From an uncultured Eubacteriales bacterium (lineage in GTDB: Bacteria; Bacillota; Clostridia; Lachnospirales; Lachnospiraceae), in the NCBI GenBank assembly GCA_900319795.1, contig ONPU01000018.1, forward strand, positions 1 to 34,821: 34,821 nt of DNA, read 5' to 3'. A program made the position numbers and the translations under genes. The notes below the pieces were generated by a model. It was not told the DNA's origin. It saw only the letters and a list, made by a program, of their open reading frames with translations, and did not search any database. Below, piece by piece: positions 4,472 to 21,207 of this stretch (its first letter is position 1; every line of letters begins with the position of its first letter).

Positions 4472-4573
4472 GGATCATTCTGTTTCCTAAAAGTAATAAT
4501 GGCAGAGCTCTCCCCCTGATGTTAAAATGGAACCATCTTCCTTACCTTCTTGCCTGAAAGGAGCATCTTATAT

Positions 4574-6802
4574 ATGAAAAGAATGATCTCTCTCCTTCTC
4601 ACTCTTACTCTGGCAGTTTCCCTTTTCACAAATGCGGCATTTGCCGCCGACTCCCCGAAAGATGGCGATACGATGGTATCCCTCAGCTTTGACGGAGACA
4701 AAACCGAAGGCTTCATGATCTATACAAACGGCGGCAGCTGTGACATTTCCAATGAAAATGAGAGCCTGTGCGTCACCGTGACCAACCCGGGACTTCTCGA
4801 TTACTCCAATCAGGTTTACTACGACGGATTCTCACTTGCGCAGGGCTGTGTCTATACTTACAGTTTTGACATTTCTTCCGATCTTGAGAGAAAAGCACAG
4901 TACCGAATCCAGCTGAACGGAGGAGATTATCACGCGTATGTCGAAGACAATATCGACATCGGACCGGATCCCGTTCATATCGAAAAAGACTGGACGATGG
5001 AGGACGAATCGGATCCCGCGCCGCGGATTGTATTTAATCTCGGAAAATTCGACGGCCTCGATGAAAGCACTCCTGAGCACCATATCTATATCGACAATAT
5101 CACACTCGTTGTTAAAGACGCCTCCGCGGCCCAGGCGATCGAGTCTCTTCCCGAATACTCGCAAGTGGCCCTGAACCAGGTCGGCTACCGTCCTTCGGAT
5201 TCGAAAACCGTCTTTGTAAAGGACGAGACCGAAGAGGCTGTCTATACCGGCTTTTCCGTAATCAGCGAGGCGGACGGAACGGAGATACTCAGCGGAACTC
5301 TGACAGAACCTGTTTATGACAAGGCCAGCTGGTCGCATGTAAGGCACGGAGATTTCTCGGATCTGAAAGAGCCCGGGTCCTACCATATTGAAATAAGCGG
5401 CGGATCCGAACCTCTCATTTCTCCGACATTTGAAATAGCGGACAATATCTATGACGATTTATATAAAGAAGTATTTCTGATGCTCTACCGGCAGAGATGC
5501 GGGACAGAAACAGATCCTCAGATCACCGGCACCAAGTTCGCCCATAAAGCCTGCCATACCGGTCTTGCCAGGGTCTACGGAACAGACCGGACCGTGGATG
5601 TGAGCGGCGGATGGCACGACGCGGGCGATTACGGAAGATACGTGGTTTCCGGCGCGAAAACCGTTCTGGACCTGCTTATGGCCTTTGAGGATTTCAATGA
5701 GGGCAGCGATGATTTCGGCATTCCGGAAAGCGGAAATGCAATCCCGGACCTCCTGGATGAAGCCCGCTACGAAATCGAATGGATGCTGAAAATGCAGGAT
5801 CCCGAAAGCGGCGGTGTCTGGCACAAGGTGACCTGCGCCTCCTTCCCCGGAGAAGTTCCGCCTGAAGAAGAGACCGATGAGCTGATTCTTGCCCCCATTT
5901 CCATCACAGCCACGGCGGATTTCGCGGCAGTGACGGCGAAGGCTTCGACGATTTACAAGGCCTATGATCCGGCATTTGCGGACACACTCTACGAAGCGGC
6001 AAAAAATGCATTTGCCTATATTGAAAACACGGAAGATGCCGGATTCAAAAATCCCGAAGACATTTCCACGGGCGAATATCCGGACAGCGATACAGTTGAC
6101 GAACGCCTCCTCGCCGCAGTGAATCTGTATCTGGCCGGAAACGAAGCCGTCCTAGATACGCTGTACGCATGGTATGACGAAGCCCGCGAAAGCCATAAGA
6201 AAGACCTTCTGGATCCGGGACTTGGCTGGGCTAAGATGAACACCTATACCGTTCATGATCTCGCCACCTACGCGCCCGGGACTCTTTTGGACGTGACAAG
6301 CGACTACCTGGACCGCTTCTTTAAAGATCTGGATGCCATGGAAGAGCGCTCCGTTTCCGACGCCTATTATATGTCTCTCGGCAAGGCATACCCTTGGGGA
6401 TCCAATATGAGCGTCGCGAACAACGGCATGTCCTGGCTCATGGGAAATCTGTTTGAAGGCGAGAAAAAGGATTACATCGGTTTCGCGAAAGAACAGCTGG
6501 ACTATCTTCTCGGCGCCAACGCGCTCTCCACATCCTACGTGACCGGATTCGGCACGCTGTCGCCTCTCAATCCTCATCACAGACCTTCTCAGGCAGCAGG
6601 CGCGGTCATGCCCGGCATGCTGGTCGGTGGCCCGGACAGCAGCCTGGAAGATCCGTATGCCAAGGCGGTCCTTTCCAACTCCGCGCCGGCCATGTGCTAT
6701 GTGGACAACACGCAGAGCTACTCGACCAATGAGGTAACGGTCTATTGGAATTCGCCGCTGATCTATCTCCTTTGCGGAGTCGTCAAAAGCGTCGAATCAT
6801 GA
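4574..6802 (+). CDS. Secreted glycoside hydrolase family 9 (endoglucanase-type)
   Basis: A 742-residue secreted enzyme expected to cut beta-1,4-glucan chains of cellulose or related glucans. A signal peptide (MKRMISLLL...NAAFA, cleavage near residue 24) is followed by a CBM4/9-like beta-sandwich (~30-185). Next come an Ig-like CelD_N domain starting near residue 195 (VALNQVGYRPSDSKTV) and the (alpha/alpha)6 GH9 domain. GH9 residues are visible: DAGDYGRY with Asp349 and Asp352, LNPHHRPS, and the C-terminal catalytic Glu720 in STNEVTVYWNSPL. No dockerin, SLH domain or sortase signal is seen, so it is probably released. The ATG at 4574 has AAAGGAG upstream; an earlier in-frame codon at 4550 lacks one. 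It ends 12 bases from the convergent gene at 6815 with no terminator between them. Confidence 0.93.
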   Translation: MKRMISLLLTLTLAVSLFTNAAFAADSPKDGDTMVSLSFDGDKTEGFMIYTNGGSCDISNENESLCVTVTNPGLLDYSNQVYYDGFSLAQGCVYTYSFDISSDLERKAQYRIQLNGGDYHAYVEDNIDIGPDPVHIEKDWTMEDESDPAPRIVFNLGKFDGLDESTPEHHIYIDNITLVVKDASAAQAIESLPEYSQVALNQVGYRPSDSKTVFVKDETEEAVYTGFSVISEADGTEILSGTLTEPVYDKASWSHVRHGDFSDLKEPGSYHIEISGGSEPLISPTFEIADNIYDDLYKEVFLMLYRQRCGTETDPQITGTKFAHKACHTGLARVYGTDRTVDVSGGWHDAGDYGRYVVSGAKTVLDLLMAFEDFNEGSDDFGIPESGNAIPDLLDEARYEIEWMLKMQDPESGGVWHKVTCASFPGEVPPEEETDELILAPISITATADFAAVTAKASTIYKAYDPAFADTLYEAAKNAFAYIENTEDAGFKNPEDISTGEYPDSDTVDERLLAAVNLYLAGNEAVLDTLYAWYDEARESHKKDLLDPGLGWAKMNTYTVHDLATYAPGTLLDVTSDYLDRFFKDLDAMEERSVSDAYYMSLGKAYPWGSNMSVANNGMSWLMGNLFEGEKKDYIGFAKEQLDYLLGANALSTSYVTGFGTLSPLNPHHRPSQAAGAVMPGMLVGGPDSSLEDPYAKAVLSNSAPAMCYVDNTQSYSTNEVTVYWNSPLIYLLCGVVKSVES

Positions 6803-6814
6803 ACCATAATTTCC

Positions 6815-8014
6815 TCACCCTTCGTCTTCCTCCACCGTAATGATGTCTTCGAGAATATAATGAAATGAAGGAGAACTGTATTCCGCGTTTTCCTCAAATC
6901 CGTTATTGAGATCAATGGTGTCCTGAGGATCGTTCGGATTGACTCCGATATAGTCCCCCTGAAATACCTGCAGGCTTCCGTCCTTCAGCTTCTCCTCGGC
7001 TTCCGCAAGTGCCTCCGCCGTGCCTTGGGCAGCATTGTAGTCATTGAGGTCCAGAAGCTTTACCCAGCCTTCTTTCATACCGGCGCTGATGTCATTGCCG
7101 TGCACATTGCCTTTCACAACGGTTTCGATCTTCCTGTTCTGGCGGACCGCTTCGACGGCTCCCAGAACATACGGTGTCCAGTTGATTCTCGTACTGATCA
7201 GCACCGAAGTGGGCGCCACGTCCTGCATGCTCTGGTTATAGCCCACAAAGATCCGTTTCAGGCTTCCCACGGCCTCTTCACAGGCAACCGCCGGACCGAT
7301 TGTATCCGTGTGCTGCGAAAGGACCACGCAGCCTTCCGAAATCAGCTCCTCGGCGCATCTCTTTTCGGCCTTGAAATTGCCCCAGGAATACGTATAGCGG
7401 ACTTTGAGTTTCGCCTCCGGCGCGACAGTGCGAATGCCGAGAATAAAAGCCGTAAAGCCGGAAATCACCTCTGTATTCGGAAAAGCGGCAACATAACCCA
7501 CTTTCGCTTCATAGGATTCGATATACTCCCTGTCAATGAGTTCCCGCAGCTTCATACCCGCCGCAATGCCGCTCAGATAGCGGCCTTCGTAAATCGTTCC
7601 CTTGAACGTATGATAGTTCTCCGGAGCATTTTCCGGCAGCGCCTCAAGGAAAGAAGCCTGGCAGAACTGAATGTGCGGATAATCTCCGGCAATTTTCATG
7701 AACTCTTCGGTATAGCTGTTGGTAAAAATGATGTTGCAGCCCTTCTGGATCAAATCCATGAGCGGCTCTTCCGCTTCCGTATCCGGCACGTTGTTCTTGG
7801 AGTAGATCTCGATCCGGTCCTTGTACTCTTCCATAAGGGCTCTTTCCGCCTCGGCGAAATTGGCGGTATAAGGCACGCTCTCATCGTCTTCATAGATGAA
7901 TCCCACTTTCAGCGTGCCTCCGTAGGGAGTGCCCTTCATCTGAATGAAGATACTGGCAAATAAAGCCAGCAGCACGGCGCAGGTCAGAAGCGTCGCGATG
8001 TATACTCTCTTCAT
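6815..8014 (-). CDS. BMP-family (PnrA/Med-like) binding protein, membrane-anchored
   Basis: A 399-residue protein of the basic membrane protein family, whose members bind nucleosides or other small ligands outside the membrane. An uncleaved-looking N-terminal hydrophobic segment (residues 5-25) with no lipobox cysteine suggests a signal anchor. The two-lobed fold is indicated by LKVGFIYEDDES, FTNSYTEEFMKIA, KGTIYEGRYLSGIAAGMK and ISTRINWTPYVLGAVEAV. Its ATG overlaps the stop codon of the HD-GYP gene (ATGA), so the two are translationally coupled. No ABC permease or ATPase gene is nearby, which argues for a sensory rather than transport role (inference). The ligand cannot be told from sequence. 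Confidence 0.8.
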   Translation of the reverse strand: MKRVYIATLLTCAVLLALFASIFIQMKGTPYGGTLKVGFIYEDDESVPYTANFAEAERALMEEYKDRIEIYSKNNVPDTEAEEPLMDLIQKGCNIIFTNSYTEEFMKIAGDYPHIQFCQASFLEALPENAPENYHTFKGTIYEGRYLSGIAAGMKLRELIDREYIESYEAKVGYVAAFPNTEVISGFTAFILGIRTVAPEAKLKVRYTYSWGNFKAEKRCAEELISEGCVVLSQHTDTIGPAVACEEAVGSLKRIFVGYNQSMQDVAPTSVLISTRINWTPYVLGAVEAVRQNRKIETVVKGNVHGNDISAGMKEGWVKLLDLNDYNAAQGTAEALAEAEEKLKDGSLQVFQGDYIGVNPNDPQDTIDLNNGFEENAEYSSPSFHYILEDIITVEEDEG

Positions 8015-11000
8015 GCTCCGCCCCCTTCCTTCTTTTCGGCTTTCGCCTCGTCTATGGCTTTCGCCTCGTCCTCCGCAACCTTACGGGCCGCGGCTTCTTT
8101 TTCCTCATCGGTCATGTTCGCCTTTTTCTCGGCCTCATGCGCGTTCATCAATTCAGGATAGAGTTCTTTCAGGTTGATTTTTCCGTCTTCTATCAGTTTC
8201 AGAAGGATATCGTCCGATGCGGGATCGAACTGAGTTCCTCTGCCCTTCTTCAGCTCATTGATGACGTAGTCGAGATCCATCTGTTTTCTGTAAATACGGT
8301 TCGCCGTCATTGCGTCAAATGCGTCGGCTGTTCCGATAATCCTCGCGAAGAGCGGAATCTCTTCTCCCTTCAGCCCCTGGGGATAACCCCGCCCGTCATA
8401 CCGTTCATGATGATACAGGGCGCCTTCCACAACGTGATCCAGAATCGTAAATCCTTTCAGAATATCTCCGCCGCGGCTGGTGTGGGATTTCATGACGCCG
8501 TATTCTTCATCCGTGAGTCTTCCCGGCTTATTGAGAACGCTGTCAGGGATGCCGATCTTACCGATGTCGTGCATCTGCGCGGTTCTGCGAAGGCTCTTTA
8601 ATTCATTTTCGGAAAGGCCCATTTCCCGGCCGATCATAACGGAATAGGTCGCAACCCTCGCGGAGTGCTGCGCGGTACGGACGTCCTTCGCGTCAACGGC
8701 TTTCGCGATCGCGATAATCGTTTCATCGCCCATCTGTGCACGCTGTTTCATGACCTCAACTTCACGCCTTTGGACTTCCAGGGTCTTTCTCACCTGAGTC
8801 TTGACAACGAACCATGTGAACCAGGCAATCGCGCATGCCGCTGTGACCAGCATATAGATCTTAAACCAGCGGTTGTCATAGATCTCTTTTTCTTTTATGA
8901 CCTCATATCGACGCTCTTCCAGGATTTTCTTTTTGTTGCTGTCGAAAACAGCCAGATGCAAAGTATATTCTCCGCTCGGAAGGTTCGTATAGACAATGGA
9001 ACCGACCGTACTTTGCGGTGCAATCGTCCAACCATTTTCAAACCCCTCCAGGTAATAGCCGAGGTTTGGGTCCTGGATAGTGAAGTTGATCAGTTCCTGG
9101 TGGAATTCGATACGGCTGACGCCGCGCCCGACCACAATCGGAGTGCCCCTTTCGACCTTCCGGACCTCGCTGTCCATCGATACCGCCGGGATCAGCATAC
9201 GATAGGAACGGCCTTCGGCTCCGTACCTGTCCGTGTCGAGAATATAGACGCCGCGGTCGCAGCACAGGAACAGATCTCCCGAGCCGTCAGAGTAGTTCCA
9301 GGAGTTTGCTGTCAGTGTTCCGGTAAGACCTTTTCTGGCGTCCAGCAGCTCATAGCTGACCTCTGTCTTTTCTTCATCGAGGACGTCGTGGCGGTTCACA
9401 ACATAGATGCCCGAGCTTCCGGGTACGAAAAGCTTCTCGCCGTCCGCTGTCCAGAGGTCATAATTGTTAAAGTACGGGAAGCTGTCCAGAAGGCGGATCG
9501 TTCCCTCATCATTCATATAGCAGAGGCTGTTGCTGGTTACGATAAACATTCCGTCTGATTTCTTATCGCGGATTGTACGCAGAATCACTTCCGAGCTGAG
9601 GCCGTCCGCCTTCGTCAGCATCCGGGTCACTTCGTAATTCTCTATCACTGCGATTCCGTCACCGTCAGTACCGGCATAGATCTTCCCGTCAGGCATCTCT
9701 GTGACGGTAAGAACCATCGACTGGATCTTCTTGTCCTCGTACCCGATCGTTTTGATAATCTCATGGTCCCGGATAAAGCAAAGGCCGGTATCGCCTGCCG
9801 CGACGATTGTCCCGTCCGACAATTCACTCACAAGCCTTGAACGGTTTCCGAAGCTGCCGTTGCTCTGGTTGTAGATATGCTGAGTCCCGTCTTTCTCTAT
9901 TTCCACAAGGCCCTGTCCGTATGTGCAGATCCACAGGCACTCCCTGCTGTCTGTAAAAATACAGCGGATGCGGATATCCTGAAACTGCTCGGTCAAAGAG
10001 TTGGTAATCTGTTTGCGAAGCTCCCCGTCGGCAATATCGAGTCCCTGATCCGTTCCGAAGTAATAGCGGTTTCCCCACTTCGTCACGCTGTTGACGACCC
10101 GTCCCTTCATGCCGATCGTGCTGTATACGTCTTTAAATGAAGACGGCGACAGGCGAAGAAGTCCGAGACGCGAGGATGTGAACCAGAAATTGTTCTGGTA
10201 GTCCACCATCATATGGTCAATGGAACTGTTAAAGGTATTGGTATTGATCGAACGGAAAAAGCCGCCCCTGTCCATGTAGCCGATACCGTTATCCGCCGTG
10301 ACGAAAATCTCCCCGTTATCCATAAAACGGATGTCCTGAAGAGACAGGAGTTTTTCACAGTTCACCGCTCTGAGATGCTTAAAATAGCCGGTGGAAATAT
10401 CATAGCTGTGAATCTTTCCTCCCGAAGTACCGGCATAGAGAATGCCGCCGTCGTCAAAGGCACAGCAGGAAAACGGGGTTTCATTTTCAGCCGTCTGAAG
10501 GGAGCAGGCGATCTTGCCTTCCCGAAGCAGAAACAGGCGTCCGTCCGCTGTCACGACGGCAACGTTTCCGAACTCATCTGCAGCGATGCGGTCGGAATAG
10601 TTGACCTCCGTCAGTGTGTTGATCTTTTTCAGTCCGCTGTTCAGGGAAAGGACCTGCATGCTGCCCGATGTACCGATATAATAATATCCGTCCGCTCCCT
10701 GCGTGATGCAGCGCACGGAGTTCGAAGGCAGGCCTTCATCCGTATCAATGACATTGACGATCTTTTCATTAATGGAAATGGAAAGACCGTTATCATTCGT
10801 CCCGATCCAGAGTCTTCCCTCTGAATCCACGAAAAGGCAGTTGACATTTCTTACGGATTCATAGGCATTCATCCAGCGGAATTCCTTGCCGTTATATCTG
10901 TAAAGACCGGCATATGTCCCGATCCACAGGATGCCGTCATTGGTCTCGACAATGTCGTTGGCTTCTCCGCAGGGCAGGCCGTTATTGCTGCTGAAGACCG

Positions 11001-11763
11001 TCTGTACATAGTCGTCATAGTCGATCGACGACTCCGTATTGACGGCAGCCTTAACACGGGTGCCTCCGGAAAAAAGAAGCGCAAACAGCACAATACCGGC
11101 CGTTATTTTAGGGCCGTTTCCGTGTTTTACGTGACGGGCTTCTTCCTCCTCCACCTCTTCGGCAATTTCCTCATAAGGATATTCGTCTTTCCGGTCGGAA
11201 GCAGTCTCTTTGTCATTGTTTTTCCGGGTCAGGCGCACAAGTTTGGTGCATATGAACACCATCCCCAAAATGAGGACCTTGTCCACGAATTCCGTATAGA
11301 ACTGCCCGACGATCATACAGGGAATCTTCGGATATCCCAGTTCTATAAGGAAATTCATCACGCCATCGCCCCAGAGATTGCCTGTGGAGCCGTTATAATA
11401 GATCAGATTGAGGGGCGCGGAAACCACCAGGCAGACGATCGCGACCATTGAACTCACGGACATGGTTCCGAACGCGTCGTTCATCATCCCTCTTTTTCCG
11501 GCTTCACCGACGATGACGGCAATCGCGATACTCGTAAATGCATAGATATAGGAAATGTTATTGTAGAACCCGTATATGAGATTTCCGGTCACACCTACAA
11601 TCGAACCGACAACCGGCCCGCCCACATAGGCGGCCAGAGCGGTTCCGAACGAATCCAGCCAGAGCGGCAGCTGGTAGTGGAGCGCAAAAAGACGTCCCCC
11701 TACATTCAGAAGAATACAGAGGCAGACAAAGGATATAATTTTATATAACTTCCAATCTTTCAC
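8011..11763 (-). CDS. Membrane receptor: ECF-S-like domain, beta-propeller, Y_Y_Y and HD-GYP phosphodiesterase
   Basis: A 1250-residue chimera. Residues ~1-190 form a multi-pass membrane domain with LWLDSFGTALAAYVGGPVVG, resembling ECF S-component or substrate-sensing membrane modules. A further membrane segment lies at ~228-245. Residues ~250-860 are many Reg_prop-like propeller repeats (for example DGILWIGTYAGLYRYNG and SEGRLWIGTNDNGLS), followed by a Y_Y_Y-like domain and another membrane helix near 970. The C-terminal HD-GYP domain has HDIGKIGIPD with His1065 and Asp1066, and HHERYDGRGYP with GYP at 1126-1128, so it is predicted active on cyclic di-GMP. A Lys/Ala/Glu-rich tail of ~44 residues follows. 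The GTG start at 11763 has only a weak AGGGG upstream. It sits between two binding-protein genes and overlaps the second, implying one signalling unit. Confidence 0.88.
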   Translation of the reverse strand: MKDWKLYKIISFVCLCILLNVGGRLFALHYQLPLWLDSFGTALAAYVGGPVVGSIVGVTGNLIYGFYNNISYIYAFTSIAIAVIVGEAGKRGMMNDAFGTMSVSSMVAIVCLVVSAPLNLIYYNGSTGNLWGDGVMNFLIELGYPKIPCMIVGQFYTEFVDKVLILGMVFICTKLVRLTRKNNDKETASDRKDEYPYEEIAEEVEEEEARHVKHGNGPKITAGIVLFALLFSGGTRVKAAVNTESSIDYDDYVQTVFSSNNGLPCGEANDIVETNDGILWIGTYAGLYRYNGKEFRWMNAYESVRNVNCLFVDSEGRLWIGTNDNGLSISINEKIVNVIDTDEGLPSNSVRCITQGADGYYYIGTSGSMQVLSLNSGLKKINTLTEVNYSDRIAADEFGNVAVVTADGRLFLLREGKIACSLQTAENETPFSCCAFDDGGILYAGTSGGKIHSYDISTGYFKHLRAVNCEKLLSLQDIRFMDNGEIFVTADNGIGYMDRGGFFRSINTNTFNSSIDHMMVDYQNNFWFTSSRLGLLRLSPSSFKDVYSTIGMKGRVVNSVTKWGNRYYFGTDQGLDIADGELRKQITNSLTEQFQDIRIRCIFTDSRECLWICTYGQGLVEIEKDGTQHIYNQSNGSFGNRSRLVSELSDGTIVAAGDTGLCFIRDHEIIKTIGYEDKKIQSMVLTVTEMPDGKIYAGTDGDGIAVIENYEVTRMLTKADGLSSEVILRTIRDKKSDGMFIVTSNSLCYMNDEGTIRLLDSFPYFNNYDLWTADGEKLFVPGSSGIYVVNRHDVLDEEKTEVSYELLDARKGLTGTLTANSWNYSDGSGDLFLCCDRGVYILDTDRYGAEGRSYRMLIPAVSMDSEVRKVERGTPIVVGRGVSRIEFHQELINFTIQDPNLGYYLEGFENGWTIAPQSTVGSIVYTNLPSGEYTLHLAVFDSNKKKILEERRYEVIKEKEIYDNRWFKIYMLVTAACAIAWFTWFVVKTQVRKTLEVQRREVEVMKQRAQMGDETIIAIAKAVDAKDVRTAQHSARVATYSVMIGREMGLSENELKSLRRTAQMHDIGKIGIPDSVLNKPGRLTDEEYGVMKSHTSRGGDILKGFTILDHVVEGALYHHERYDGRGYPQGLKGEEIPLFARIIGTADAFDAMTANRIYRKQMDLDYVINELKKGRGTQFDPASDDILLKLIEDGKINLKELYPELMNAHEAEKKANMTDEEKEAAARKVAEDEAKAIDEAKAEKKEGGGA

Positions 11764-11783
11764 GTAACGGTTCAGCCCCTTTT

Positions 11784-12773
11784 CTATACTCCCAGACGGG
11801 CGGCATAGTCTGTATACTCATCAAACCAGGCCTCGTAAGTGCCGTCTTTCACCACTTCGTCAATCACACCGTTCACAAAATACATCAGCATCAGTTCATC
11901 CTTCGGGCCGGCAATTCTGTCTCCCCAATACTGCTCTTCCAACGAATAGCCGATTCCCTCTATGAATGTCAGGCCGCATCCCGGATTATTGCTGATGTAA
12001 ATCGAAGCTGTTTCAATATCTGCCGCGGCAGCGTCAACCTCTCCCTTCTCAAGAGCCGTATAGATCTCACTCATGTTATTAAATCTGCGGAACTGTCTGT
12101 AATTCATCACATGCTCCGCCAGAAGGCTCTCCTGAACGGAACCGCTCTGGGCAGCCAGATTCTTCCCGGCAAGGTCCTCTTCGGAACGGATCCTGTCGCG
12201 GTCCTCCTCCCGGATGAGAATCCCGACATTGGCGGTTTCATCCGTAAAATGATATCCCTTCGACATCTCCAGTATTCCCGCTCTGGCCGGCGTAAATGAT
12301 ACGCCCGATATGATCAGGTCGTTTGTTCCGTTGGCCACAGAGGCAAGCGCGTCGGAAAAGTCGAGCGGAACGATCCGAAGTTCTACTCCCATGCGCTCCG
12401 CAATCAGGCGGGCGAGTTCCATATCCGCTCCAACGTACTGCTCCTCACCTTCCAGCGAAGGATCGATAAATTCCTGCGGCGAATAATAGGGCTCTGTGGC
12501 CACGGTCAGGTAGCCTCTCTCCCGGATGATGAAAAGTCTGCCTTCTGCATTTTCCGGAATGCCGCCGGACACATCCATGGACTCATCCACGAAGCCGAAC
12601 TCATTTTCATGATAAAGAGATTCCGTCTCTTCCGAACTGTTCGTCTCCGGGACGGCCGTTCCCTCCGCTTCCTTCAGCCCGGGCTGCGCGCACGCACTAA
12701 GCAGCAGTACCGTGCTCATCAGTACCGCTGTCTTTATGATTCCTGCTCTTTTGTTGAATTTTCCGAATCTCAT
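11784..12773 (-). CDS. Extracellular solute-binding lipoprotein (PBPb, amino-acid type)
   Basis: A 329-residue lipoprotein with lipobox LLSAC (Cys28), a linker of ~45 residues rich in Glu and Ser, and a family 3 solute-binding domain: GYLTVATEPYYSPQEFID, YVGADMELARLIAERMG, SFTPARAGILEMSKGY and DLAGKNLAAQSGSVQESLL. Such proteins bind amino acids or other polar ligands at the cell surface. No permease or ATPase gene accompanies it. It is the first gene of a three-gene operon ending in a BMP-family protein, with 20 bases to the HD-GYP receptor gene. It may therefore deliver a ligand signal to that receptor (inference). It has its own promoter. Confidence 0.87.
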   Translation of the reverse strand: MRFGKFNKRAGIIKTAVLMSTVLLLSACAQPGLKEAEGTAVPETNSSEETESLYHENEFGFVDESMDVSGGIPENAEGRLFIIRERGYLTVATEPYYSPQEFIDPSLEGEEQYVGADMELARLIAERMGVELRIVPLDFSDALASVANGTNDLIISGVSFTPARAGILEMSKGYHFTDETANVGILIREEDRDRIRSEEDLAGKNLAAQSGSVQESLLAEHVMNYRQFRRFNNMSEIYTALEKGEVDAAAADIETASIYISNNPGCGLTFIEGIGYSLEEQYWGDRIAGPKDELMLMYFVNGVIDEVVKDGTYEAWFDEYTDYAARLGV

Positions 12774-12817
12774 ACTGCTTATTAAAAATAATCTGAATTC
12801 GATGCTAAGCCGATTAT

Positions 12818-12846
12818 ATTATACTATGCAAAATCAACGGGCACAA
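12818..12846 (-). promoter_or_regulatory. Promoter of the binding-protein/HD-GYP operon
   Basis: On the minus strand, TTGTGC (12846-12841), a 17-base spacer and TATAAT (12823-12818). A second overlapping TATAAT lies at 12818-12813. It sits ~45 bases upstream of the lipoprotein ATG. Confidence 0.65.
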
Positions 12847-12864
12847 TATTTCGGCAGTTTTTAT

Positions 12865-13755
12865 TTACGCGTCATACTGAAATCCGCTGGGCTCGCCGAT
12901 CGGCTGATCCAGCAGTTCGGGATGTTCAAAAATATGCTTGACGAGCTTCAGGCTCCTCGCGAAGTAGAAGCCGTCCGCGATTCTCTCATCCAGCGTCACT
13001 CCGAGATCCACCACGGTACGGATTTCCTTTGTTCCGTCTTCCATAAGCATTTCTTCCTTATGGATGGTCCCGAGCGTCACCATGATACTGCAGGTGCCGT
13101 AATTGCTCAGGTGATGGTAGACGGATTTGCAGCGGATGCTTCCGAGGTTTGAAAGAAGAACCGAGGTGTAATTCGGATCCCCTTCCGTCAGGAAGTCCGG
13201 GTTGATTCCCCAGAAGTCCATAATGCGGACGCCCTTTATCGCTGCCGCCATAATCGGCCTCGGAAGAGCGGCGAATTGATCCAGAAGTTCGTCCACACCG
13301 CCGGTCGCGTGCTCACTTTTACGGGCTTCCCGCACATCCCCGTATATTCTTTTGCTGATCGTGTCGATGGTGTCGTCGTCTTCCGCCTTCAGCACCATCA
13401 GCGCCTCTTCCGCGCCGTCCGCGAAACGTCTTTTGGCGACGAAACTCAGCGTGATGTCATTGTGCTCGTAGTGCCGGTATCCCTGAACGAAGCAGTTCAT
13501 CTTCGGCCGTTCTTTCAGCATTCGGGCAATCGCGGCAACGACACAGTGAAATACAGTCGTCTTGTAGTCGGGATGCTCCTCATTTTTCTTTTCGATATAG
13601 GACATCAGGTCCGTCACGTCGATCACGTCCTGCAGGAAGACCTCGCAGTCCGTTCTTCTCGGCCAGAGAGCTGCCATCACGGTCTGCAGCCCCGGCTGTT
13701 TCACGAATTTCGCGTCCCTGCGGTCTTTCGGATTTCTTTTACCGGATCGTGCCAT
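12865..13755 (-). CDS. E2-like (2-oxoacid dehydrogenase acyltransferase fold) protein, non-canonical active site
   Basis: A 296-residue protein with the catalytic-domain fold of E2 acyltransferases and chloramphenicol acetyltransferase, without lipoyl or E1/E3-binding domains. Family-like segments are DVTDLMSYI, TVFHCVVAAIARML, VLLSNLGSI and VVDLGVTLDERIADG. In E2 enzymes the last motif is DHRxxDG and its histidine is the catalytic base; here residue 257 is Glu (DERIADG at 256-262). It may have another acyl-transfer mechanism or be non-catalytic. It begins five bases after the acyl-CoA ligase, so the pair likely works together on an activated acyl group (inference). The substrate is unknown. 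Confidence 0.75.
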   Translation of the reverse strand: MARSGKRNPKDRRDAKFVKQPGLQTVMAALWPRRTDCEVFLQDVIDVTDLMSYIEKKNEEHPDYKTTVFHCVVAAIARMLKERPKMNCFVQGYRHYEHNDITLSFVAKRRFADGAEEALMVLKAEDDDTIDTISKRIYGDVREARKSEHATGGVDELLDQFAALPRPIMAAAIKGVRIMDFWGINPDFLTEGDPNYTSVLLSNLGSIRCKSVYHHLSNYGTCSIMVTLGTIHKEEMLMEDGTKEIRTVVDLGVTLDERIADGFYFARSLKLVKHIFEHPELLDQPIGEPSGFQYDA

Positions 13756-19296: not shown

Positions 19297-21207
19297 TTAT
19301 CCGAGAGGAATCTCGACGATTTCCGCCATCCGGGACAGGCACTGCTCAATCTGTTCCGATATTTCCGAAATCATGCGCCCCGAAATCTCCTCGTCTTTCT
19401 CCGTTTCCAGATTGCGGTAGAAATTCTCGCGGATCTCGCTGGACATGCTGTCCATGCGGGATTCAAAGGCCTTCCGCGTCACCATTTTCCTGAACATGTT
19501 CGGAATGTCCGCGCTTAAGATCGCCTGCTCCATCCGGTTTTTACCGAGCACCAGAACCAGCAGGGAAATGACCGCTCCGGCCATAATCCCCGGCGCGCCG
19601 CTTGAGATCAGCGCGATCCCGCTGCCTCCGCAGAGAAGACCCACAAGAACGGATACAAGCGTGTCGATGAGGAGTGTAATCTGTCCGACCGCAAATACGT
19701 CCTTCGTCTCGATCTTGATGTCGATATCCGTCAGCGCGAGATAGGACGTAAGACTCAGCTGCTGATAGGGAATGTTGTGCCGCGTGCAGATCGGAACCGT
19801 ATACTCTTCGATATCGACAGCCAGAGGCTTCAGCCAGTCCATAATCGGTTTCACGAGAAGCATGCGCGCCTCCTCGGTCTTGAGGAACTCTTCGATTTCC
19901 CGTTCCAGCTCGCCGTCCACGTCCTCGAGACGGCGGATTTCTCCGCTCCGCCAGCGGTCGAACACGGGAAGGGCGGCATTTTCCAGAACCGGATCCACCA
20001 GTGTCTCAACCGTATTGCGGTACAGTTCATCGATGTGCAGCCGGACGAGGTCCTCGATCACGGTCGAAGAAATCAGTTCGTCCAGCTCCGTGCGGAATTC
20101 CCTTAAGTCCTCATCGATGCGGCCGCAGGAAGCCAGTCCGCGGGCAATCGTAAATTCAGGCTCCGATCCGGTGATGACGACCGATTCCGGGAACACTTCC
20201 CGTACCCATCCCCGGATCTCCTGCATACGGGAAACGCCGCCCGTAAGGAAAACCAGTTCGGGCAGTTCTCCGTCAATATGTCCGCGTACCTCCTTAAGGC
20301 TGTCCGTAAACAGATCCCTGAAGGACTGTCCGCCGAGCACCTGCTGCTTTCCGCAGAGCATATCGTGGGCGATCTTCGGATCGATCGTAAGCTTCAGCCT
20401 CATCGGAATCGTATGGCGGATCATGACGGACTCCGAACATTCGTGATCGGCCCAGTAATCCACATCCGAGAAATATTTTTCCTTCAGCCGCCGTACCGCG
20501 AACTCACAGTAGTTTTTCCACGGTTCGCTCTCTTCGAAGACCGTCCGGATTCGTTCCTCGCGTGGGGACGTTTTAAGAGCATTTTCCAGCAGAATCTCGT
20601 CCATCATTCCGCCGCCGAGAGCCACCTCGCCGGCCGTCTTCAGTTCCACTTCCTTACCGCTCGCAATATAGGCAAAGTCCGTCGTGGAAGAGCCGATGTC
20701 CACTACAAGCACCGGCTTCGAGAGAATATCATAGCCGACCTGAAGATGTTTGGACTGGCAGGCAGCCACAAGCGCCGCCCTCGACTCCGAGATAATCCGC
20801 GCCGGCGGATAGCCGATCTCCTCAAAAAGAGCTCTGTAATCTTCTCTGGCCGCGCTGTCCCAGCCGGCAGGGCAGCCGATATAGAAACAGCAGTCCTCGC
20901 CTTTTACCAGATGGCCCTCGCCATAGAGTTCTCCCAGAATTCCGACGGCAAAGCGCCTGAGGTCTTTCCGGCTCTCACGATCTGTAAGAAACCGGCTCTT
21001 GAAACGGATCGCCCTTTTTACGGCGCGGGGCGTATAGCAGGCGCTCTCGCCCACCAGCACTTCTCCGCTTTGAAGAAGGGCATATGCCGTCACGATGCTT
21101 TTCACTTCCCGGATTGTCAGGATTTCCGGCTGTTCAGCGGAGTTCTTCCCGACTAACGATATGGCGCTCTCGGCATCCCCGAGATCAAATCCGAAATAGC
21201 GCTCCAT
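19297..21207 (-). CDS. Hsp70-like ATPase with C-terminal membrane hairpin
   Basis: A 636-residue protein. Residues ~1-370 are an actin/Hsp70 ATPase domain: phosphate-1 FGFDLGDAESA, phosphate-2 LVVDIGSSTTDFAYI, the adenosine region VFLTGGVSRMQEI and FTIARGLASCG. No DnaK-type beta-sandwich substrate domain follows. Instead there is a largely helical, charged region (~375-515), two adjacent hydrophobic segments (~523-570, rich in Gly, Leu and Val) and a C-terminal helical tail. This suggests an ATPase held at the inner face of the membrane. AAAGGAGG precedes the ATG. It lies 43 bases after a gene whose product has its own membrane pair and a GrpE-like end. The client is unknown; cell-envelope or stress roles are guesses. 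Confidence 0.8.
   Translation of the reverse strand: MERYFGFDLGDAESAISLVGKNSAEQPEILTIREVKSIVTAYALLQSGEVLVGESACYTPRAVKRAIRFKSRFLTDRESRKDLRRFAVGILGELYGEGHLVKGEDCCFYIGCPAGWDSAAREDYRALFEEIGYPPARIISESRAALVAACQSKHLQVGYDILSKPVLVVDIGSSTTDFAYIASGKEVELKTAGEVALGGGMMDEILLENALKTSPREERIRTVFEESEPWKNYCEFAVRRLKEKYFSDVDYWADHECSESVMIRHTIPMRLKLTIDPKIAHDMLCGKQQVLGGQSFRDLFTDSLKEVRGHIDGELPELVFLTGGVSRMQEIRGWVREVFPESVVITGSEPEFTIARGLASCGRIDEDLREFRTELDELISSTVIEDLVRLHIDELYRNTVETLVDPVLENAALPVFDRWRSGEIRRLEDVDGELEREIEEFLKTEEARMLLVKPIMDWLKPLAVDIEEYTVPICTRHNIPYQQLSLTSYLALTDIDIKIETKDVFAVGQITLLIDTLVSVLVGLLCGGSGIALISSGAPGIMAGAVISLLVLVLGKNRMEQAILSADIPNMFRKMVTRKAFESRMDSMSSEIRENFYRNLETEKDEEISGRMISEISEQIEQCLSRMAEIVEIPLG

Follow-up and report, generated by a model that had tools for sequence, protein, structure and literature searches.

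A conserved pair of an S-component-fold HD-GYP receptor and a BMP-family protein in Lachnospiraceae-like bacteria, a candidate sensor of nucleobases or nucleosides

What does an operon do that places a membrane-bound HD-GYP phosphodiesterase between two extracytoplasmic binding proteins, with no transporter genes alongside? Such an operon lies on the minus strand of contig ONPU01000018.1 (assembly GCA_900319795.1), of which we analysed positions 1 to 34,821 (34,821 nucleotides, hereafter the window); its genes encode a PBPb lipoprotein (P0001), a receptor (P0002) and a BMP-family binding protein (P0003). Gene conservation shows the conserved unit to be the receptor with the BMP protein, as an operon. 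We propose, with a probability of roughly 0.55, that these two make up a bipartite transmembrane receptor whose ligand is an extracellular nucleobase or nucleoside, or a compound resembling one, such as a 7-deazapurine, and which controls cyclic-dinucleotide hydrolysis; the pair probably senses such compounds rather than importing them. Our argument draws on sequence comparison and predicted structures, and concerns the following genes and parts.

11784..12773, minus strand: P0001, PBPb/SBP_bac_3 lipoprotein of 329 residues, optional in one receptor subclade (Pfam SBP_bac_3, 1.4e-21).
8011..11763, minus strand: P0002, receptor of 1250 residues with a GTG start, comprising an S-component domain, transmembrane helix, propeller, Y_Y_Y, transmembrane helix with coil, and HD-GYP.
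6815..8014, minus strand: P0003, partner BMP (PnrA-like) binding protein of 399 residues (Pfam Bmp, 3.1e-26).
11236..11739, minus strand: S-component-fold membrane domain of the receptor, about residues 9-176 (NF045596, 62.2 bits; AlphaFold; Foldseek).
11053..11109, minus strand: probable transmembrane helix that follows a charged linker, roughly residues 219-237 (by eye; low-confidence AlphaFold helix, 219-229).
9214..11016, minus strand: Reg_prop propeller region, probably extracellular, about residues 250-850 (Pfam Reg_prop, 9.5e-21; PDB 4a2l, 3v9f).
8890..9201, minus strand: Y_Y_Y domain, about residues 855-958 (Pfam, 5.3e-9 for residues 903-952; strands in the AlphaFold model).
8788..8865, minus strand: probable second transmembrane helix of the receptor arm, about residues 967-992, running into a coil (AlphaFold helix 965-1026; sequence).
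8218..8703, minus strand: HD-GYP phosphodiesterase domain, residues 1021-1182 (Pfam HD_5, 2.4e-39; PDB 5z7c, 4mcw, 4r8z).
7934..8002, minus strand: N-terminal hydrophobic stretch of P0003, about residues 5-27, without a lipobox pattern.

The gene layout given in a preliminary description of this DNA is present: 20 bases (11764-11783) separate P0001 from P0002, and P0002 and P0003 overlap by ATGA at 8014-8011. A 4-base ATGA overlap with a BMP start available occurs in 12 of 22 loci. Its report that transporter genes are absent also holds, in that no ATP-binding cassette (ABC) permease or ATPase domain was found by Pfam in the open reading frames (ORFs) scanned, namely 20 further window ORFs and the flanking P0004 and P0005, the shorter and outermost of the 71 listed ORFs being excluded. 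The single promoter that it invoked is not established; a consensus scan of 6600-13100 gave four promoter-like sites, where 6.5 are expected by chance, and none upstream of 12773.

The same description allowed that the genes might be neighbours by accident, and for the receptor and the BMP protein this is excluded. Among 397 genomes of the family, with at most two receptor and four BMP candidates scored per genome, a receptor match at E<=1e-230 is present in 32 and a P0003 match at E<=1e-72 in 33; 31 of the latter score at least 347 bits, and the other two 250-253. All 31 genomes with this partner-type BMP carry the receptor, adjacent to it in 30; in G112 the two genes lie on separate contig ends. 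Counted from the receptor, the BMP gene is next door on the same strand in 28 of the 32 genomes by listed coordinates, with G112 again divided between contig ends; G683 and G710, listed as BMP-only, have a receptor adjoining the BMP gene in the loci fetched. Thirteen of 16 newly found genomes were fetched, and G627, G666 and G734 are paired by listed coordinates only, their PBPb status not being included. On a tree of 38 receptors and six outgroup proteins (L047, with a cut receptor, and L206, with no receptor on the contig, are omitted), a BMP gene accompanies 34 receptors, is absent from three and meets a contig end in one; the earliest-branching receptor has it, and none of the six outgroup proteins does. 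Weaker receptor matches (33-37% identity) served as outgroup or not at all. Because the partner-type BMP occurs only in receptor genomes, adjacent in 30 of them, and the pairing extends across the tree, we reject chance adjacency. In 391 genomes of the class (E<=1e-120, two candidates scored per genome), the matches that are receptors of this type were confined to G000, G180 and G335, each a member of that same family. The same-genus genome G591 has neither receptor nor BMP at the thresholds used, so the distribution of the module is patchy.

Conservation does not extend to the three-gene block that had been suggested. P0001, with a lipobox-like LLSAC (by eye), has counterparts adjoining the receptor in five of 38 other receptor loci (L045, L046, L048, L050 and L052; in L047, which starts within the receptor, the upstream side falls outside this count), and these five came from a search biased toward close relatives. 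With the window they fall into one clade, of nine rows (Shimodaira-Hasegawa-like approximate likelihood ratio test [SH-aLRT] 100; three of the nine without PBPb), or of fourteen rows in the other tree. PBPb as a core part is rejected on this count, the sole SBP matches in L054 and L065 being weak (24-25% identity) and kilobases distant, and the gene distribution indicates an optional addition in one subclade. Of the proposed sensory system with two binding proteins, then, gene conservation lends good support to a BMP protein that reports to a membrane HD-GYP receptor, but not to PBPb as a general component. A second ligand site, if there is one, is more likely to lie inside the receptor, in its S domain.

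Domain matches show the receptor to consist of an S-component fold, a propeller with Y_Y_Y, and an HD-GYP domain that keeps its motif set, in that order; the full-length AlphaFold model is of moderate quality (predicted local distance difference test [pLDDT] 79, predicted template-modelling score [pTM] 0.49), and the domain arrangement is therefore not taken from it. The HD-GYP motif set (HD, GYP and the His and Asp residues that we take to bind metal) is invariant in all 25 aligned receptors. Among the solved chains nearest to the domain are 5z7c, a 3'3'-cyclic GMP-AMP (3'3'-cGAMP) enzyme, and the cyclic di-GMP (c-di-GMP) enzymes 4mcw and 4r8z; with 15 GGDEF matches in the bacterium's own genome, 14 of them above cut-off, c-di-GMP is a plausible substrate.

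The preliminary description had placed a domain of the receptor in the membrane without recognising there the S-component fold of energy-coupling factor (ECF) transporters. An AlphaFold model of residues 1-185 (74 sequences) reaches a pLDDT of 96.7 and a pTM of 0.91, and its best nine PDB matches by Foldseek are chains of RibU, PanT and ThiT and chain S of 4huq, which we take to be an ECF transporter as the others are; probabilities are 0.85-1.00 and query-normalized template-modelling scores (TMq) 0.50-0.60, yet E-values are 0.044 or worse. Together the model and these matches point to a six-helix S-component fold. The sole NCBIfam match of the domain at E<=0.01 is ECF_S_CD3073 (NF045596), at 2.4e-15 with the whole of P0002 and, for the isolated domain, at 62.2 bits, under the curated cut-off of 180. 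Four of its residues, W35, D37, N129 and G132, are invariant across the 25 receptors.

The AXXXA docking motif is reported to be missing from S-component-fold receptors (available text of PMC11109136). In the window receptor, the two AXXXA sites of helix 1 hold C and L, so that the EcfT docking motif is absent. Both alanines are present in one of 25 receptors versus six of eight over-cut-off free-standing CD3073 proteins, and A or G stands at the second site in 3/25 versus 7/8 (Fisher p=2e-4, for rows that are related and non-independent); Ala occurs at the first site in six receptors and at the second in three. The count takes in eight of nine over-cut-off free-standing proteins (the ORF step missed L194), and the alignment 74 of 79 rows (L073, L216, the second L089 copy and both L231 rows are out) and 31 of 35 free-standing loci. 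By this comparison the receptor S domain has mostly lost the motif. By the features tested it is also not a 5TMR-LYT domain: helix H0 is absent, the first helix (residues 6-30) lying at the protein start, the NXR motif between helices 1 and 2 is found in none of the 25 receptors (residues 24-41), and Pfam PF07694 (5TMR) scores 20.6 bits on the isolated domain, below its cut-off of 24.6.

The S domain heads many other receptor types: S with an extra stretch and HD-GYP (L196-L201, L203 and L204, ORFs of 568-752 residues), S with a hybrid kinase (L202), S-propeller-kinase (L089, L090) and S-propeller-HD-GYP-REC (L077, L088). Domains were scanned in L201, L202, L077, L088, L089 and L090 and read by eye in the rest, the label Cache being a guess by eye. 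A gene with S-component and HD-GYP matches also lies downstream of the BMP-less receptor L240 (G711:C69) and after the S-propeller-kinase of L089.

The partner P0003 scores 92.5 bits with Pfam PF02608 (Bmp; cut-off 24.1), and its solved relatives are 3s99 and 6pi5, the matched chains being 3s99 and AtzT. According to the available text of PMC6834077, AtzT binds guanine (0.11 uM) via Tyr45, Ser97, Glu165, Trp194, Asn218 and Asn220, and adenine is the ligand modelled into 3s99. Read by AtzT numbering in 24 of 36 partner BMPs, the pocket retains Tyr45 (22/23 readable), Ser97 (19/24), Glu165 (22/23) and Trp194 (22/23), with His at 218 in 21/23 and Asp at 220 in 22/23, the same as in 3s99. The alignment shows that partner BMPs keep most of a purine-type pocket. 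They differ from other BMPs at the N-terminus, where a membrane anchor appears to replace the lipobox: all 35 partner BMPs with a readable start have a hydrophobic N-terminus (best 19-residue Kyte-Doolittle mean of at least 1.94), and a lipobox pattern occurs in 1/35 of them versus 6/7 other BMPs, with starts chosen by script for both counts. The usual setting of a BMP lipoprotein, with a lipobox and an ABC permease and ATPase alongside, was not found for P0003 among the ORFs scanned. Elsewhere in the same genome, BMP domains also occur within proteins of ~650 residues (G000:C22:11461-12243 and G000:C8:2752-3228; L005 and L006, ORFs in L013 and L014) that by eye have no signal sequence at the start.

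A clue to the ligand comes from free-standing relatives of the S domain, for which we fetched 35 of 37 short-ORF places (all but G472 and G180:C7; L207/L208 and L229/L230/L232/L235 are near-copies). A nucleoside hydrolase, nucleoside phosphorylase or TudS-like gene neighbours 22 of the 35, versus one of 70 control loci. All nine over-cut-off S genes lie beside a TudS-like gene (that of L188, which was scanned, matches NF045597). Among the other 26 loci, 11 have a nucleoside hydrolase at most 3.2 kb away (three scanned, RihC/RihA-like), and two more, L209 and L222, have a phosphorylase neighbour with EcfT/EcfA genes; that of L222 scanned as PNP_UDP_1, and the matched stretch in L209 has 59% identity to that of L222 and stops 17 bases short of the S ORF. 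In the control loci (964 kb), three hydrolase queries and the TudS query had no match, and the one match of the phosphorylase query is next to a BMP gene of the window's own genome. The best free-standing scores with our S model are those of L222 (182 bits) and L209 (176 bits; L209 is within the model's own alignment), and the S tree leaves the branching of these two relative to the receptors unfixed. With such neighbours, the CD3073-like S components look like importers of nucleosides or thionucleobases (candidate loci L207, L208, L210-L212, L217, L219-L221, L225 and L227; L209 and L222; L187-L195).

With the membrane topology that we infer for the receptor and its tethered BMP protein, the latter would close upon binding its ligand and, once loaded, dock on the propeller/Y_Y_Y arm or on the outward-facing side of the S domain, which, its EcfT docking lost, would be a second ligand site. 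Both inputs would shift the part formed by Y_Y_Y, transmembrane helix and coil, altering the HD-GYP phosphodiesterase and thereby changing, up or down, the level of c-di-GMP or another cyclic dinucleotide. In one subclade, the amino-acid-type PBPb lipoprotein is an addition, perhaps as a further input or an adaptor. We also speculate, and more tentatively, that two unrelated uptake machines have merged here, an S component cut from its transporter and fitted with a propeller arm and a phosphodiesterase, and a tethered BMP protein, both tuned to nucleobases or nucleosides.

Several observations weigh against sensing of nucleobases or nucleosides by the pair. Reg_prop propellers are chiefly known from glycan sensors. 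The receptor occurs without the BMP gene in three genomes (G009, G630 and G711), these receptors grouping together on the tree (SH-aLRT 64, and 99 for a pair within the group). Loss of the docking motif is a less clean distinction when more proteins are compared: below-cut-off free-standing proteins have both alanines in 2/7 only, with A or G at the second site in 7/7, and A or G at that site is retained in 4/9 other S-propeller and 4/10 S-Cache-type receptors. As to the pocket, positions 218 and 220 depart from AtzT, which binds guanine and has Asn at both, and in nearly all partner BMPs Gly and Arg take the place of the second-shell Asn169 and Thr139; the pocket is degraded in L050, lacks Ser97 in L045, L048, L054, L055 and L186 and Glu165 in L052, and has Tyr at 218 in L054. 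It is also kept in the five non-partner BMPs aligned (of seven asked), and so marks a subfamily rather than a use. For 13 of the 35 free-standing S loci, the queries used revealed no nucleoside-type neighbour, and L209 also has an HTH_11+3H regulator, presumably of the niacin-repressor type, suggesting niacin.

The best of the alternatives, though an unlikely one, is a glycan sensor whose propeller binds an oligosaccharide as in Bacteroides hybrids, with the S domain as only an anchor or dimeriser and the BMP protein tuning or stabilising it. The propeller and Y_Y_Y of P0002 do resemble BT3049, BT4673 and BT4663, the last a sensor of heparin/heparan sulphate, and a GH9 cellulase gene (4550-6802) stands tail to tail with the operon. 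That gene was found in none of the 38 other receptor loci, and we reject a conserved cellulase link; nor would a mere anchor account for the invariant W35, D37, N129 and G132, and the exclusive BMP partner is left unexplained.

It is more doubtful that P0003 is an orphan binding protein feeding a BMP ABC transporter encoded elsewhere, the operon only coupling uptake to receptor expression. The genome does have further BMP genes, two of them (on C2 and C16) adjoined by ATPase/permease-like ORFs (by eye), and the pocket is common to non-partner BMPs; those transporters, however, possess their own BMP, the lipobox is rare in partners, and the score class of P0003 is exclusive to receptor genomes.

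A narrower possibility, and a rather improbable one, is that the ligand is not an ordinary nucleobase or nucleoside but a 7-deazaguanine (preQ1, queuine or queuosine). Queuosine salvage employs QueT/QrtT-type ECF S components and the nucleoside hydrolase QueK (available text of PMC11130926), and guanine-like bases fit AtzT-type pockets (available text of PMC6834077). Against this, the S domain matches CD3073 alone in NCBIfam, and the scanned neighbours of its free-standing relatives are RihC/RihA-like and PNP_UDP enzymes, although no queuosine-specific search was made. Least probable is a transceptor in which the S domain docks a shared EcfT and imports its ligand while signalling, since, although the genome has two EcfT-type genes and single alanines persist at the AXXXA sites of some receptors, only one of 25 has both, and a 1000-residue C-terminal arm should impede toppling (an argument of PMC11109136, in its available text).

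Every ingredient of the proposed nucleobase/nucleoside receptor has precedent. The Bacillus subtilis lipoprotein Med, which we take to be a BMP-family member, is reportedly needed by the sensor kinase KinD, whose output is a histidine kinase and whose sensor domain is unlike that of P0002. ECF transporters, unlike other ABC importers, need no separate binding protein; P0002 and P0003 bring an S-component-like domain together with one, apparently for signalling. We know of no S-component or propeller domain in MbaA of Vibrio cholerae. In NspS-MbaA, likewise, a c-di-GMP enzyme of the membrane takes its signal from an extracytoplasmic binding protein; there the enzyme is a GGDEF-EAL protein and NspS binds polyamines (available text of PMC8967002), here the output domain is HD-GYP, and the binding-protein/receptor gene neighbourhood is conserved in our case. 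The 5TMR-LYT receptors (YpdA, BtsS) use an S-component fold for sensing, with AXXXA lost and many outputs (available text of PMC11109136); P0002 differs in lacking H0 and NXR and in having a large extra arm and a binding-protein partner, and the main text of that article on 5TMR-LYT mentions neither HD-GYP nor a propeller. Bacteroides Reg_prop/Y_Y_Y hybrid two-component systems such as BT4663 have the propeller and Y_Y_Y sensor in common with P0002, which outputs through HD-GYP instead and adds an N-terminal S domain. Xanthomonas GdpX2 and GdpX3 are Reg_prop/Y_Y_Y proteins of c-di-GMP signalling, with a propeller in c-di-GMP enzymes as here; they are grouped with GdpX proteins (GGDEF by name), not HD-GYP, and no S domain or binding-protein partner is mentioned in the available text of PMC6637768. 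CD3073-family ECF S components belong to the same sequence family as the receptor's N-terminal domain but are free-standing, and the domain scores below the family cut-off.

In the open-licence literature we found no article joining "two component regulator propeller" and HD-GYP and, among the matches listed, none with HD-GYP and S-component or energy-coupling factor, none with PnrA or "BMP family" alongside c-di-GMP or HD-GYP, and no mention of "CD3073"; two articles bring Reg_prop/Y_Y_Y together with c-di-GMP or GGDEF, one of them being that on Xanthomonas. That the combination was not met there is weak evidence of novelty. The module points to a concrete, testable class of ligands, both for S-component receptors and for CD3073 proteins; it is also a candidate means for such bacteria to convert the presence of free nucleobases or nucleosides into second-messenger levels. 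If the proposal is right, an S component would be served by a substrate-binding protein, within a nucleoside-to-second-messenger pathway in Lachnospiraceae-like bacteria.

No known RNA family reaches its gathering score in the window. On the same strand, 91 bases upstream of the operon, 12865-13755 encodes a 296-residue protein with a 2-oxoacid dehydrogenase acyltransferase catalytic domain, a gene not found in the 38 other receptor loci. Farther off, 19300-21207 encodes a 636-residue protein with a weak Hsp70 match (1.2e-7).

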